From: Pseudoalteromonas sp. FUC4
Lineage (GTDB): Bacteria; Pseudomonadota; Gammaproteobacteria; Enterobacterales; Alteromonadaceae
Assembly: GCF_008370255.1 (NCBI RefSeq)
Contig: NZ_SEUI01000005.1
Location: forward strand, 118,006-182,005
Reading direction: 5' to 3'
Length of the DNA stretch: 64,000 bases
Numbering within the stretch: the first letter of the stretch is position 1; every line of letters starts with the position of its first letter. This document shows positions 6,124 to 25,009 of the stretch, in pieces. The position numbers and the translations under genes are program-made. The notes under the pieces are model-generated. The model was not told the origin of the DNA, searched no databases, and saw only the letters and a program-made list of their open reading frames with translations.

Positions 6124-7806
6124 TTAAAGTAAGCTGTTACGTATGGTTAAAATATGGTGAATTTGATCCCAGCGTAATAGCCCCATAATTTGTTGATTAT
6201 CTAAAAGGTTATAAACGTAAAGCGCGCCACTTCTTTTATCTTTCAGTATATCGAATGCATCGGCTAGAGTGGCTTGGCTGCTGATGCCCTGCAAGCTAAT
6301 GTAGTTTATATTTATTGTTTCATTAGACATTAGCGTTAAATCGTATTCAGCGAGGCGGTAACCATTTTCTTCGTCAAAAACAATTAACGGGGTTTGGCTA
6401 TCCATCGCATCTAGCGTGTTTTTTATTTGTTCTTTGTCATCTGAGTAAAGCAATTTAAAGTCTTCATCCATATCATCCATTATCCCCACTTTTTGTAATG
6501 CTTCAGTCGCGGGAGATACATGGTACGGTAATCCCTGAAAGTCTAACTGCTGCAAAAATATGGAGCGATTTCCAAAAAATTGCAATGCAGTTACATATGC
6601 AGTGGTTATAACTATCATCGCAGGAACGATTATTTCAGGTGATGATGTAAGCTCCATGACTGTTGTTAAAGCAGCAAGTGGTGCATGCAGTGTTGCCGCT
6701 AATAATCCAGCCATACCTAACACCCCATACGTACCCGCAATATCAGTACCCGGGCTAATATATTGAGCAAAAAAGGCCATTAAAGTCCCAATTAATACGC
6801 CAAGTCCAATTACCGGACCAATTAAACCACCAGGTATACCCAAGCCGATAGCAAACAATGTGGCAAGTAGTTTAGCGATTAAAATGGTAGTAAGCAGCTT
6901 TACGTTATCAGGCGATTCAACCGCGATAGTAATCGCACTCATACCAGAACCCATAGCATGAGGCACTGCGTAAGCTATCAAGCTGGCAATACAGCCTGCG
7001 ATTAGTAAACGAGGAAACATACTTAAAGGTTTAAATGTTTTAATAATTAACATTAAATTTTGATTAAAGCTAAATGCTATAGCGCCAAGCGCCATACCGC
7101 ATAATATTAAATACGGGTAATGCCAACCACTTAATGGCGCTATTGTAATGAGTGCAAGTTCAGAGCCTTCACCAAAAACAAACTGTGTTGCCAGTGCGCC
7201 AGTAACAGCGGCAAGCATGATAGGTACAAATATATGTACTTTATATTCACGAAGTACCACTTCCATAACAAAAATAACGGCTGCAAGTGGAGTATTAAAC
7301 GACGCGGCTATACCTGCCGCTACTCCACAACCACTTAGAGTACGCATGGCATTATGCGGTAAATGCAGCTTATCCGCCAAAATACTCGCCCCTGTTGCGC
7401 CCATATGCACGGAAGGCCCTTCTCGGCCAACTGAAAAACCGCTAATGAGAGCAAGAGCGCCACCAACAAATTGATTAACCGTATTGTATAAAGGCATTTG
7501 CCCATAGTGACGTTTAATTCTGTGTATAACAAAGGGGATACCCAAACGGTAATGTTTAAACCCAGTAAATGCAGCAAACGTAGCTATTAGTAATGCAGCA
7601 ACTAAAGGCATTAGTACACGTTCAAGTGTTGGTAGGGTAGTAAAGTTGTCAGGTGTTTCTAAAAATAAGCTTTGGAAAAAAAGAATGGTTAAGCGAAATA
7701 AAATAATAAAAAATGCAGCAATTAATCCGGCAACTACGCCTAATAAGCATAATTGTACAGATGTTTTAGGTTTTGCCAGCCGACGCCTGAGTTGCTCAAG
7801 CCACAT
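6124..7806 (-). CDS. CLC-family chloride channel or H+/Cl- antiporter with C-terminal CBS domains
   Basis: A 560-residue inner-membrane protein of the CLC family. The selectivity-filter motifs are present: GREGPSVHMGA with the gating glutamate, the GSGMSAITI segment corresponding to GSGIP, and GIPGGLIGPVIGLG. About 400 residues of membrane helices are followed by a cytoplasmic tail of about 130 residues with two CBS-like units (one near the motif VIFDEENGYRLAEY, one at the end near LADAFDIL). The tail is absent from E. coli ClcA, so nucleotide or ionic control is likely. The start ATG at 7806 has GAGGA eight bases upstream. Whether it is a channel or an antiporter is not decided by sequence alone. 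Confidence 0.9.
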   Translation of the reverse strand: MWLEQLRRRLAKPKTSVQLCLLGVVAGLIAAFFIILFRLTILFFQSLFLETPDNFTTLPTLERVLMPLVAALLIATFAAFTGFKHYRLGIPFVIHRIKRHYGQMPLYNTVNQFVGGALALISGFSVGREGPSVHMGATGASILADKLHLPHNAMRTLSGCGVAAGIAASFNTPLAAVIFVMEVVLREYKVHIFVPIMLAAVTGALATQFVFGEGSELALITIAPLSGWHYPYLILCGMALGAIAFSFNQNLMLIIKTFKPLSMFPRLLIAGCIASLIAYAVPHAMGSGMSAITIAVESPDNVKLLTTILIAKLLATLFAIGLGIPGGLIGPVIGLGVLIGTLMAFFAQYISPGTDIAGTYGVLGMAGLLAATLHAPLAALTTVMELTSSPEIIVPAMIVITTAYVTALQFFGNRSIFLQQLDFQGLPYHVSPATEALQKVGIMDDMDEDFKLLYSDDKEQIKNTLDAMDSQTPLIVFDEENGYRLAEYDLTLMSNETININYISLQGISSQATLADAFDILKDKRSGALYVYNLLDNQQIMGLLRWDQIHHILTIRNSLL

Positions 7807-17520: not shown

Positions 17521-18723
17521 ATGGGTTTAAAAAAATATCTAGAAGATATCGAGCCGAATTTTGAAGCCGGTGGTAAATATGAAAAGTTTTATGCACTGTA
17601 TGAAGCAGCTGCAACTATTTTTTATACACCAGGCTACGTAAATAAAGGCGCGACACACGTACGCGATAACATCGACCTAAAACGTATGATGATTTTAGTG
17701 TGGATGGCGACGTTCCCAGCTATGTTTTTCGGTATGTTCAATATTGGTCATCAGGCCGCCGGTGCTTTAGCACAAGGTTTTGAACTATCAAACACGTGGC
17801 AAGTTGGTTTGTTCCAGTTATTCGGTGGCGAGTTAACCGCTGATGCAGGCTGGGGCGCTAAGATGTTCTATGGAGCATGTTTCTTCTTACCTATCTACGC
17901 TGTAACATTTGCAGTAGGTGGTTTCTGGGAAGTTATATTTGCTTCAGTGCGTAAGCATGAAATTAACGAAGGTTTCTTTGTTACTTCTGTATTATTTGCA
18001 CTTATTTTGCCTGCAACTATTCCTTTATGGCAAGTTGCATTAGGTATTACGTTTGGTGTAGTAATCGCTAAAGAAATCTTTGGTGGTACCGGCCGTAACT
18101 TCTTAAACCCTGCTTTAGCCGGCCGTGCATTTTTATTCTTTGCATACCCAGCTCAAATCTCAGGTGACACAGTATGGACAGCAGTAGATTCTTTCTCTGG
18201 TGCAACCATGCTAGGCCAAGCATTTGCTGGCACACTTGACTTTGCAAACATGGAATTATGGTGGAATGCGTTTTATGGTTTCATTCAAGGTTCTGTAGGT
18301 GAAACATCTACACTTGCATTATTAGTAGGTGGTTTGTTCTTAATTTACGTTCGTATCGCTTCTTGGCGCATCGTACTAGGTGTATTCCTAGGTATGGTAG
18401 CAACTGCATTTTTATTAAATGCTGTTGGCTCAGAAACTAACCCTGTATTTGCAATGCCTTGGTATTGGCATTTCGTACTTGGTGGCTTTGCGTTTGGTAT
18501 GTTCTTTATGGCTACTGACCCTGTATCAGCTGCATTTACTAACAAAGGTAAATTAGCATATGGTCTATTAATTGGCTTTATGGTGGTTATGATACGTGTT
18601 GTGAATCCTGCTTTCCCAGAAGGCATGATGCTAGCAATCTTATTTGCTAACTTGTTCGCTCCACTGTTCGATCACTTTGTAGTGCAGGCTAATATTAAGC
18701 GGAGGTTGGCACGTAATGTCTAG
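17521..18723 (+). CDS. nqrB: Na+-NQR subunit B (membrane, covalent FMN)
   Basis: A 400-residue membrane subunit with about nine to ten helices that forms part of the Na+ channel and binds riboflavin and a covalently attached FMN. The flavinylation motif Dxx(S/T)GAT is DSFSGAT with acceptor threonine T229; ApbE, encoded downstream, performs this attachment. The sequence [21 protein letters not shown] is characteristic of the NqrB/RnfD family. It has a good ribosome site in the 4-bp gap after nqrA and overlaps nqrC by 8 bp, indicating coupled translation. Confidence 0.97.
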
Positions 18724-23438: not shown

Positions 23439-23465
23439 AAAAAGCGCTTTATAGCGCTTTTTTTG
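23439..23465 (+). terminator. Intrinsic terminator of nqrM
   Basis: Stem AAAAAGCGCT with AGCGCTTTTT, loop of 4, then T-run ending at 23464. It closes the nqr-apbE-nqrM block before a 1.1-kb non-coding stretch. Confidence 0.85.
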
Positions 23466-23668
23466 TACCTGTAAAACGCCTCCGCATCATCGCTTCCAAA
23501 GTAATCCAATCTAAATGTATTAGACAAAGGTATATAGTTTAGTTTTTTTCACCTATTAGGTTTATTTTTCTCGTTTGTCAAATTGGAGCTAACACTCTAA
23601 AGTTTAACCATAGACAAAGAGCAAGGATCTCGTCATAAGCTTGAGGCATAAGTTAGCCTCGCTTAAAA

Positions 23669-24209
23669 GAATCTTTATATTGTGTGTGAAGATGTTGTCA
23701 GTGTGAAAGGCAACTCAAATTCGGTGGTGACTGCATTTGAGTTGTTTTTATTTCCCTACAATTGCCACGTAATGTATACCAAGAATCTTTATATTGTGTG
23801 TGAAGATGTTGTCAGTGTGAAAGGCAACTCAAATTCGGTGGTGACTGCATTTGAGTTGTTTTTATTTCCCTACAATTGCCACGTAGTGTAAACCAAGAAT
23901 CTTTATATTGTGTGTGAAGATGTTGTCAGTGTGAAAGGCAACTCAAGTTCGGTGGTGACTGCATTTGAGTTGTTTTTATTTCCCTACAATTGCCACGTAA
24001 TGTAAACCAAAAATCTTTATATTGTGTGTGAAGATGTTGTCAGTGTGAAAGGCAACTCAAGTTCGGTGGTGACTGCATTTGAGTTGTTTTTATTTCCCTA
24101 CAATTGCCACGTAATGTAAACCAAAAATCTTTATATTGTGTGTGAAGATGTTGTCAGTGTGAAAGGCGGCTCAAGTTCGGTGGTGACTGAATTTGGGCTG
24201 TTTTTATTT
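23669..24209 (+). repeat. Five tandem 114-bp repeats, each with a conserved stem-loop and T-run
   Basis: Units begin at 23669, 23783, 23897, 24011 and 24125, exactly 114 bp apart; units 1-4 are nearly identical and unit 5 diverges after its hairpin. Each contains a 10-bp inverted repeat (unit 1: 23711-23720 with 23735-23744), a 14-nt loop and then TTTTTATTT. Units 3 and 4 turn pair 9 into G-T. Unit 5 changes five arm bases but keeps all ten pairs (one A-T to G-C swap and three G-T wobbles). This is what an RNA stem under selection looks like. A TATATT -10-like box opens each unit. Because 114 is divisible by three, short open frames run through, but these look incidental. Confidence 0.9.
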
Positions 24210-24583
24210 GTGCCACACAATTATTACTCCCTCCTAAAAACCTATAATCCTATTAAATATTTCTCTTTAAATCGTTTTTATTTAAACTAACCGAATGTTT
24301 TTTATCGTGTTATTTTTTATTAACAAAATAGCTTCGAAAGCTTAACTCAAATTAATTGATTTTTAGTTGAACAGAAAATTCTCTTTGTTATACTCAAGTT
24401 CGAACTTTCAGTAAGTTTTGAAAGTTTGGTTGATACGGATCAATTTTCGCTAGGTAAATATGTGCTAGCTGGATTTGATTGTATTTAGCACCTGGTTTTA
24501 GGGCTTACAACAGCAATGTTTTTTAAATTTTTCCATTGCGAACTGTATTACTCTAATTTTGTTATAGTCATTTTAGTAGGTTA
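24210..24583 (+). other. Intergenic region with regulatory palindromes upstream of the small membrane gene
   Basis: AT-rich non-coding DNA. It holds a 12-bp perfect palindrome AAGTTCGAACTT (24396-24407), overlapping a 7-bp inverted repeat AACTTTC/GAAAGTT (24403-24409, 24420-24426), followed by the FNR-type box described separately. No gene is evident. Confidence 0.5.
24430..24443 (+). promoter_or_regulatory. Perfect FNR/Anr-type box
   Basis: TTGAT-ACGG-ATCAA matches the FNR consensus TTGATN4ATCAA at all ten fixed positions. It overlaps a possible -35 (TTGATA) with a -10-like TAAATA about 19 bp on, so FNR would be expected to repress. It lies 141 bp before the ATG at 24584 and about 0.9 kb before cyoA. 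In E. coli FNR represses cyo without oxygen. Confidence 0.65.
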
Positions 24584-25009
24584 ATGTCTTTGAACACACT
24601 TTCTTTGCATCATACAACTACGGAACTTGCCTCTGGCGAGCCGCAGACGTGTGAGCGCTTGAATAAAGCAGGCAAGGGCGTGTGTGTAGCTATAACTTTA
24701 TTAGTTTTTAATACTGTAATGTTGCTAAGCGGTGCATTAGAGGATGCCTTCAAGCTTGAAGCGCTATTAAGTGATGGGTTTATTGTAGAGCCACTGTTAC
24801 TTAATCTTGCGCAATTTTTAGCTCATCCGATCATATCAAGTCAGTTACTTATTGGCCTTTGTTGGTTATTGTTCCATATTTGTCCAGCGCGTCGTGCTGG
24901 CATAATCCTCCGTAAAGCAGCCTTTGCTTTTAGCGAGGCTAAAGTTCTTCAGCCTGTGATCTCTTCACACGGTTGTCGTGCTCCACCTAGCTTTACAGGT
25001 TGCCTGTAA
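24584..25009 (+). CDS. Small membrane protein upstream of the cyo operon, function unknown
   Basis: A 141-residue protein with two hydrophobic stretches (about residues 32-50 and 84-98) and a cysteine-containing C-terminal tail (SHGCRAPPSFTGCL). It starts at ATG 24584 with AGG five bases upstream. I do not recognise the family; the RAPP near the C-terminus faintly recalls small copper-linked proteins of the DUF2946 type, but this is a weak impression. An FNR-type box upstream and the oxidase operon downstream suggest, without proving, a link to aerobic respiration or oxidase assembly. Confidence 0.6.
   Translation: MSLNTLSLHHTTTELASGEPQTCERLNKAGKGVCVAITLLVFNTVMLLSGALEDAFKLEALLSDGFIVEPLLLNLAQFLAHPIISSQLLIGLCWLLFHICPARRAGIILRKAAFAFSEAKVLQPVISSHGCRAPPSFTGCL

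Follow-up and report, generated by a model that had tools for sequence, protein, structure and literature searches.

Multicopy small RNAs (sRNAs) are known in bacteria, the Qrr RNAs being one example; to our knowledge, most sRNA genes in nature exist as one copy or, when duplicated into sibling copies, have a promoter for each copy. CsrB, which titrates CsrA, sets a precedent for RNAs that act as sponges. By analogy, GcvB of enteric bacteria may be taken as the nearest functional model for the locus described below. The targets of the GU-rich R1 segment of GcvB are CA-rich repeats close to ribosome binding sites (PMC3879156), the consensus site of GcvA is given as T-N11-A containing CTAAT (PMC3658693), and P. 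fuliginea has CsrB-type sponges, Pf1-Pf3, which carry 9-25 GGA motifs and bind CsrA (PMC9927453, PMC11882849).

We have analysed a stretch of 64,000 nt from Pseudoalteromonas sp. FUC4 (contig NZ_SEUI01000005.1, hereafter the window) that contains a tandem array of sRNA-like units. The array appears to be genuine and to function at the RNA level; sequence comparison supports its structure and a shared promoter unusually strongly. We read it, with a probability of about 0.6, as a multi-copy sRNA gene in which one regulated promoter, together with leaky internal terminators or processing, would yield RNAs acting in trans.

Units of the array and their fold

Tandem Repeats Finder places a single array at positions 23667-24209 of the window (period 114, 4.8 copies, 97% matches). 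A preliminary description of this DNA had proposed five units 114 bp apart at 23669-24209, and both the repeat call and our reading of the DNA agree with it. Unit 1 (23669..23782, plus strand, as are all parts of the array given here) consists of a conserved hairpin P1 in its 5′ part (23671-23693), the motif GUUGUC (23694-23699), a terminator-like hairpin P2 with a U-run (23706-23749) and a spacer; ahead of it stands a leader hairpin, P0 (23636..23665; arms TAAGC..GAGGC / GCCTC..GCTTA). Units 2, 3 and 4 (23783..23896, 23897..24010 and 24011..24124) were delimited by the repeat call, the reading of the DNA and a covariance model, R1. The last, unit 5 (24125..24209), has a more stable terminator-like hairpin than units 1-4 (−20.6 vs −15.3 kcal/mol).

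Hairpin P1, whose sequence in the window is AUCUUUAUAUUGUGUGUGAAGAU, followed directly by GUUGUC, was overlooked in the preliminary description; some of the G/U-rich motif is engaged in its A-U and G-U pairs. The arms of P2 are CAACTCAAAT / ATTTGAGTTG in units 1-2 and CGGCTCAAGT / ATTTGGGCTG in unit 5, and units 3-4 have the arm CAACTCAAGT. The changes in the arms of unit 5 had been listed correctly (one A-T pair became G-C by a change on both sides and three pairs became G-T wobbles), and variation in the loop is indeed restricted to its last base. The dimensions given, a 10-bp stem and a 14-nt loop, have to be revised: pairing between the A/G-rich flank and the U-run extends the hairpin beyond 10 bp, and the supposed loop holds a 4-bp apical stem. 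A simple terminator scan of 23450-24300, whose rule demands a loop of 3-8, found no terminator in the array.

Folding against dinucleotide shuffles gave z-values of −2.98, −3.61, −3.96, −3.70 and −4.13 for units 1-5; the opposite strand of unit 1, the sole unit tested in that direction, gave +0.07. Because the five units of the window show one two-sided change only, the weight for covariation comes from the wider family. In alignment A2, which holds 74 hand-picked distinct units, 97.4% of the 1404 cells of the 19-pair P2 stem are paired (shuffled mean 91.2), both-sided changes occur at 11 of the 19 pairs (5.2 in shuffles) and in 112 cells (36.3 shuffled), and the covariation score is 0.400 (0.279 shuffled); none of 500 shuffles reached the observed values on any of five measures, though kinship among the sequences inflates the pair counts. 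Sliding the register lowered the pairing to 33-58%, a control that retains the relatedness but is biased toward the structure, since this was drawn from the same sequences. The preliminary description had named arms varying independently in relatives as evidence against its proposal, and these counts show no such thing. With P2 pairs kept through two-sided changes, the comparison shows selection acting on the predicted plus-strand RNA structure of the units.

The other hairpins vary in different ways. Over 144 readable units, P1 taken together with GUUGUC has eight sequence variants (seven for P1 alone); every P1 forms 8-10 pairs, G-U counted, two of the variants extend both arms together and the rest differ mainly in loop length. 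P0 stands before the unit and varies in sequence, with a mean z of −1.51 over 113 distinct upstream stretches (65% below −1) vs −0.26 over 123 control stretches (22% below −1). Comparison thus shows a unit plan, as predicted from sequence, of a small variable hairpin P0, a G/U-rich P1 with UUGUGUGU, GUUGUC, and the terminator-like P2 with its U-run. A divergent unit without GUGUG after GUUGUC marks a further clade, to which P. haloplanktis ATCC 14393, P. prydzensis, P. shioyasakiensis and others belong. As a separate observation, the terminator loop of some units is extended, with GGTGGATTCACTTCCATAAAG.. or a similar sequence set into the apical stem where other units have GGTGGTGA; such units were seen in L037 (at 3362 and 3489) and also in L045, L047 and L048.

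Loci and genomes carrying arrays

A search with two units revealed a second array in the same genome (G000:C1:955161-955524, three units, period 138). The genome therefore has eight units at two loci, several highly similar sRNA-like copies such as characterise multicopy sRNAs. The covariance-model search found no scattered single copies in this genome: two extra matches (E 0.002-0.004) sit on the terminator behind one protein gene, and all other weak matches fall on the antisense strand of the arrays.

Matches by DNA search (E ≤ 0.001) are present in 32 of 108 Pseudoalteromonas genomes, our own included, and the covariance-model check suggested in the preliminary description gave the same number for R1 (32/108 at E ≤ 0.01). 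Seven further genomes of the genus carry an array of a different unit design, which makes 39 array carriers in total. Laboratory strains with arrays include P. distincta ATCC 700518 and P. fuliginea KMM 216. At the level of the family, nine of 295 genomes match, seven from Pseudoalteromonas and two from another genus at E 0.002-0.005; the one of these two that was read resembles an ordinary terminator. A pattern of the core, run against one genome per species for 84,980 species, hit 31 stretches, all titled Pseudoalteromonas. In all, the 41 fetched loci and the window yielded 145 units, which make up 42 arrays or fragments of arrays with one to six units each. With these numbers and the pair counts given above, the proposal of a candidate tandem small-RNA cluster with covarying stems is well supported.

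Most arrays occupy two loci, A and B. Locus A, that of the window, lies behind nqr/apbE genes. Locus B (18 fetched loci) lies behind CoA-transferase-like genes and a LysR gene, the latter 121-513 bp ahead of the array at all 18. The LysR protein of our own locus B matches LysR domains, and the GcvA model matched it below the cut-off; the other LysR genes of locus B were judged by N-terminal sequence.

The second unit design was found in seven genomes (L272-L278), where the same promoter as in the main type leads into 5-7 units of period 77-83. Each unit has a hairpin GAGTYAC..GTRACTC, then AACCAAATTGTTGTC and a terminator hairpin with the loop YUUGUGUGUUCK, one of the 41 units departing in each motif; UUGUGUGU and GUUGUC are thus present in swapped order and at other structural places. 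In a set of 26 distinct units, pairing holds in 99.0% of cells, a two-sided change is seen in 20 cells (6.1 shuffled) and the covariation score is 0.176 (0.119 shuffled), with 0/500 shuffles reaching either of the last two values. The number of pairs with a two-sided change (three) and of further pair types (11) did not exceed shuffles, 288/500 and 500/500 of which were as high. Weak internal stems, of −2.8 to −5.0 kcal/mol, are followed by a stronger last one (−8.1 to −12.0) in 7/7 arrays of this design. A general rise of terminator strength toward the array end was rejected for the main type, in which the last hairpin is the more stable one in only 17 of the 35 arrays with a usable last unit.

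A predicted promoter region shared with genes of an exported protein

The preliminary description had a TATATT box start each unit, so that each could give an RNA of about 70 nt. The sequence does not support this, as the box sits inside the conserved hairpin P1, and a consensus scan finds no plus-strand promoter in units or spacers. The sole plus-strand promoter-like site in 23450-24300 lies ahead of unit 1 (TTGTCA-17-TAAAGT, 23575..23603), in an arrangement that recurs at the loci of relatives; transcription would start at about 23610. The same scan gave six matches in total vs 2.7 expected by shuffling, the other five being on the minus strand inside units. This minus-strand match (TTCACA-17-CACAAT) overlaps the invariant core and was rejected as a promoter; it cannot be kept in some units, because those lack GUGUG.

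A promoter precedes the first unit in 38 of the 42 loci, with a spacing of 16-17, and in the other four the available sequence starts inside the array or where a contig ends. Comparison therefore shows a single promoter-like site, ahead of the first unit. Its family form is TTGTNN (mostly TTGTCR), 16-17 bases, and TAAAGT or CTAAAT, and it is common to 34 distinct array-promoter sequences and three of protein genes. Directly upstream lies a conserved T-rich element (TAGTTTAGTTTTTTTCACCTATTAGGTTTATTTTTCTCGT, 23535..23574, plus strand), recognised in the promoter alignment and in R2, a sequence-only model of the promoter region; it encloses the palindrome ACCTATTAGGT (23551-23561) and is probably an activator site. 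Further upstream, a dyad (TAGACAAAGGTATA, 23521..23534) is a degenerate copy of TAGACTAAAGTCTA from alignment A3 of 34 promoters. The dyad is an optional part of the regulatory region: it is often present, and is missing or unrecognisable by eye in L049, L051, L053, L054, L056, L069, L071 and L072.

Model R2 was built from 34 members, three promoters of protein genes among them. In our own genome the promoter region occurs five times, ahead of the two arrays and of three paralogous genes for an exported TPR-like protein of ∼135 aa (L165:3259-3666, 6224-6637 and 17894-18301; C1 at ∼488-503 kb). The five sites have E ≤ 1.4e-19 and the sixth has 0.11; because all five strong sites were members of R2, the telling fact is the gap to the sixth. 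It was a pattern derived solely from array promoters that first led to these three protein genes. The TPR similarity of their products is weak, below Pfam cut-offs, and the two of the three that were tested against NCBIfam gave no match.

Across the genus, R2 matches at E ≤ 0.001 in 58 of 108 genomes. Among the 150 matches listed, 39 have an array unit within 200 bp, 94 have the protein gene and 17 have neither. Of the latter, seven enter arrays of the second design, three belong to arrays or their leaders that a contig end truncates, two reach the protein gene just past 200 bp, one is fused to a porin-like remnant and one is at a contig end. The last three lead to a 32-aa ORF; in these genomes (G048, G049 and G050; L279, L280 and L281) we observed the promoter and 5′ UTR ahead of MNKLKRFALKQLHFYKKAVSHNLEYMSLQHKK or close variants, which take the place of the exported protein. 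The exported protein itself (E ≤ 1e-5) is encoded in 46 of the 108 genomes, and all 39 array genomes (32 + 7) are among these, a co-occurrence that is an association and not proof, because shared ancestry contributes. The comparison nevertheless shows one putative promoter region common to the arrays and the genes of the exported TPR-like protein.

Among the R2 matches listed are also weak ones, the best with E from 1.2e-5 to 5.8e-4, in ten genomes that lack R1 arrays. In the four that were examined, L255-L258, the match lies near position 1501, between divergent genes judged by eye to be LysR-like and quinone-reductase-like, a setting that suggests that the upstream element could be a LysR-type operator.

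Proposed function and comparison with known systems

If the array is a multi-copy sRNA gene, a transcription factor, possibly a GcvA-like LysR regulator, would turn the promoter on, and RNA polymerase would read across the units, some of it stopping at each P2; alternatively, the transcript would be cut between units. The product would be 1 to N copies of an RNA of ∼80-110 nt with an Hfq-type U-tail, which would act in trans in a manner similar to GcvB, its G/U-rich motifs UUGUGUGU and GUUGUC pairing with target mRNAs where these are rich in C and A. The number of units (1-7) may set the dose.

In the whole genome, the 14-mer complementary to the core has 52 places with at most two mismatches. 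Seven are the arrays, and the other 45 show no enrichment for targets vs the 42 of a reversed control. Of these 45, 23 were examined, and three lie within −60..+40 of the ATG of an ORF of at least 90 aa. We observed core-complement sites (match at 1501) near the starts of a 511-aa ORF in L302 and a 485-aa ORF in L308; as targets they are possible but statistically unsupported. Pairing with the 5′ UTRs of the three exported-protein genes of our genome was weaker than in most shuffles (0.992, 0.996 and 0.754 of 500 shuffles were at least as strong).

The absence of target enrichment in the 14-mer search also fits an RNA sponge, in which a long transcript with many copies of UUGUGUGU and GUUGUC would titrate an RNA-binding protein or an RNA while the hairpins only trim it. 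Short near-invariant motifs in tandem, a variable number of units and two unit designs that have the motifs in common and little else point the same way. We still hold a sponge to be rather improbable: a separate U-run in every unit would be superfluous for a sponge, and no candidate protein is known. CsrA is hardly likely to be that protein, because the window units and spacers (23669-24238) have no GGA and the leader has a single one, at 23625.

Terminator-like hairpins in series could also belong to a cis-acting leader or attenuator that governs the downstream gene. At 10 of the 14 window-type loci with readable downstream DNA the array is followed by the same ∼141-aa ORF and cox genes. The genes downstream nevertheless vary between species, at locus B the next ORF of at least 80 aa is on the opposite strand (18 arrays), and separate strong terminators, identified by eye, close at least 13 of the 42 arrays; the array is therefore unlikely to be the leader of the next gene, and we give this explanation very little credence. 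In the window the 141-aa ORF lies at 24584-25009, between the array and the cytochrome oxidase genes; it has no match in Pfam or NCBIfam. We also considered a type III toxin-antitoxin system, in which short RNA repeats stand directly upstream of a conserved toxin gene. The downstream genes speak against it: the two loci have no conserved gene in common immediately behind the array, and the ORF that comes next varies or points in the opposite direction.

Equally improbable is a non-transcribed DNA repeat, such as a recombination hot spot or a protein-binding array spread by duplication. The copy number does vary, and in nine chosen locus-A arrays spacers resemble one another somewhat more within an array (0.919 over 38 pairs) than between arrays (0.863 over 340 pairs), but such a repeat would not account for two-sided conservation of pairs, strand-polar folding, U-runs, a promoter on one side only and a genome free of scattered single copies. 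Coding of a tiny or repeated peptide (MLSV from ATGTTGTCAGTGTGA, or a 69-aa GTG frame) is scarcely credible: the window units and many relatives do keep ATGTTGTCAGTGTGA intact, but MLSV is not conserved across unit types, being lost in the haloplanktis/prydzensis-type units without GUGUG and missing from the second design, and the 69-aa frame stops in unit 2.

A wider scheme built on the sRNA-gene reading seems to us possible but doubtful. One regulon, perhaps under a single LysR-type regulator, would comprise the exported TPR-like proteins and tandem batteries of riboregulators, in which the number of units, with leaky internal and stronger last terminators, would give a graded RNA dose; two unrelated unit folds would have arrived by convergence at the same two motifs, or have been rebuilt around them. 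If the sRNA-gene reading is true, a polycistronic sRNA gene with up to seven units, each with a terminator-like end, would be an unusual way of setting RNA dose, and would show regulatory-RNA arrays expanding, contracting and changing their fold yet keeping their motifs. The shared promoter provides a handle on the regulator and on the exported protein family, and the presence of the same switch before small exported proteins is a hint of a control circuit not described before. Since the hosts are marine bacteria that can be cultured, transcription, dose and targets are open to direct test.

As for described families, nowhere in the window does an Rfam model reach its gathering score, and a relaxed scan of 23500-24300 gave two chance-level matches only (E 1.7 and 3.8), none of them to GcvB; the earlier remark that no described family has this unit thus holds for Rfam, the library searched. 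A description of such arrays was not found in the literature searched, which included only a minority of subscription papers. The GcvB covariance model (RF00022), which as a control matches in E. coli, exceeds its cut-off in 0 of 107 genomes of the genus. It has sub-threshold hits in 22 of them, best 37.8 of 42 bits, and 0 of the 27 listed is on an array. On these searches the array family is not GcvB, with no evidence of descent from it. The 37.8-bit hit, in one Pseudoalteromonas genome (L288, match at 1501), may itself be a diverged GcvB.

The array unit resembles GcvB in having a conserved G/U-rich segment that would be able to pair with C/A-rich mRNA sites, and control by a GcvA-like LysR protein is possible, given the LysR gene ahead of 18/18 fetched locus-B arrays. 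There is some likeness to the GcvA site: the reverse strand of ACCTATTAGGT contains CTAAT, although not every variant of the promoter element does. The R1 of GcvB is unstructured; the array has a G/U-rich core that is partly paired in P1. The array unit, of ∼80 nt vs a model of 204 positions, differs in coming in tandem copies and in its fold. The arrays share with Pf1-Pf3 an intergenic position, repeated motifs and the genus; the window units differ from them, and from CsrB-type sponges, in having no GGA.

Multicopy sRNAs being known, it is the tandem architecture and the regulon that appear new. Like LhrC1-5, PrrF1/F2 and NgncR_162/163, some of which reportedly lie side by side, the arrays consist of near-identical sRNA-like copies. 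The Rfam scan showed no sequence relation between these sibling sRNAs and the arrays, and, unlike what is known of the siblings, one predicted promoter would serve up to seven array units.
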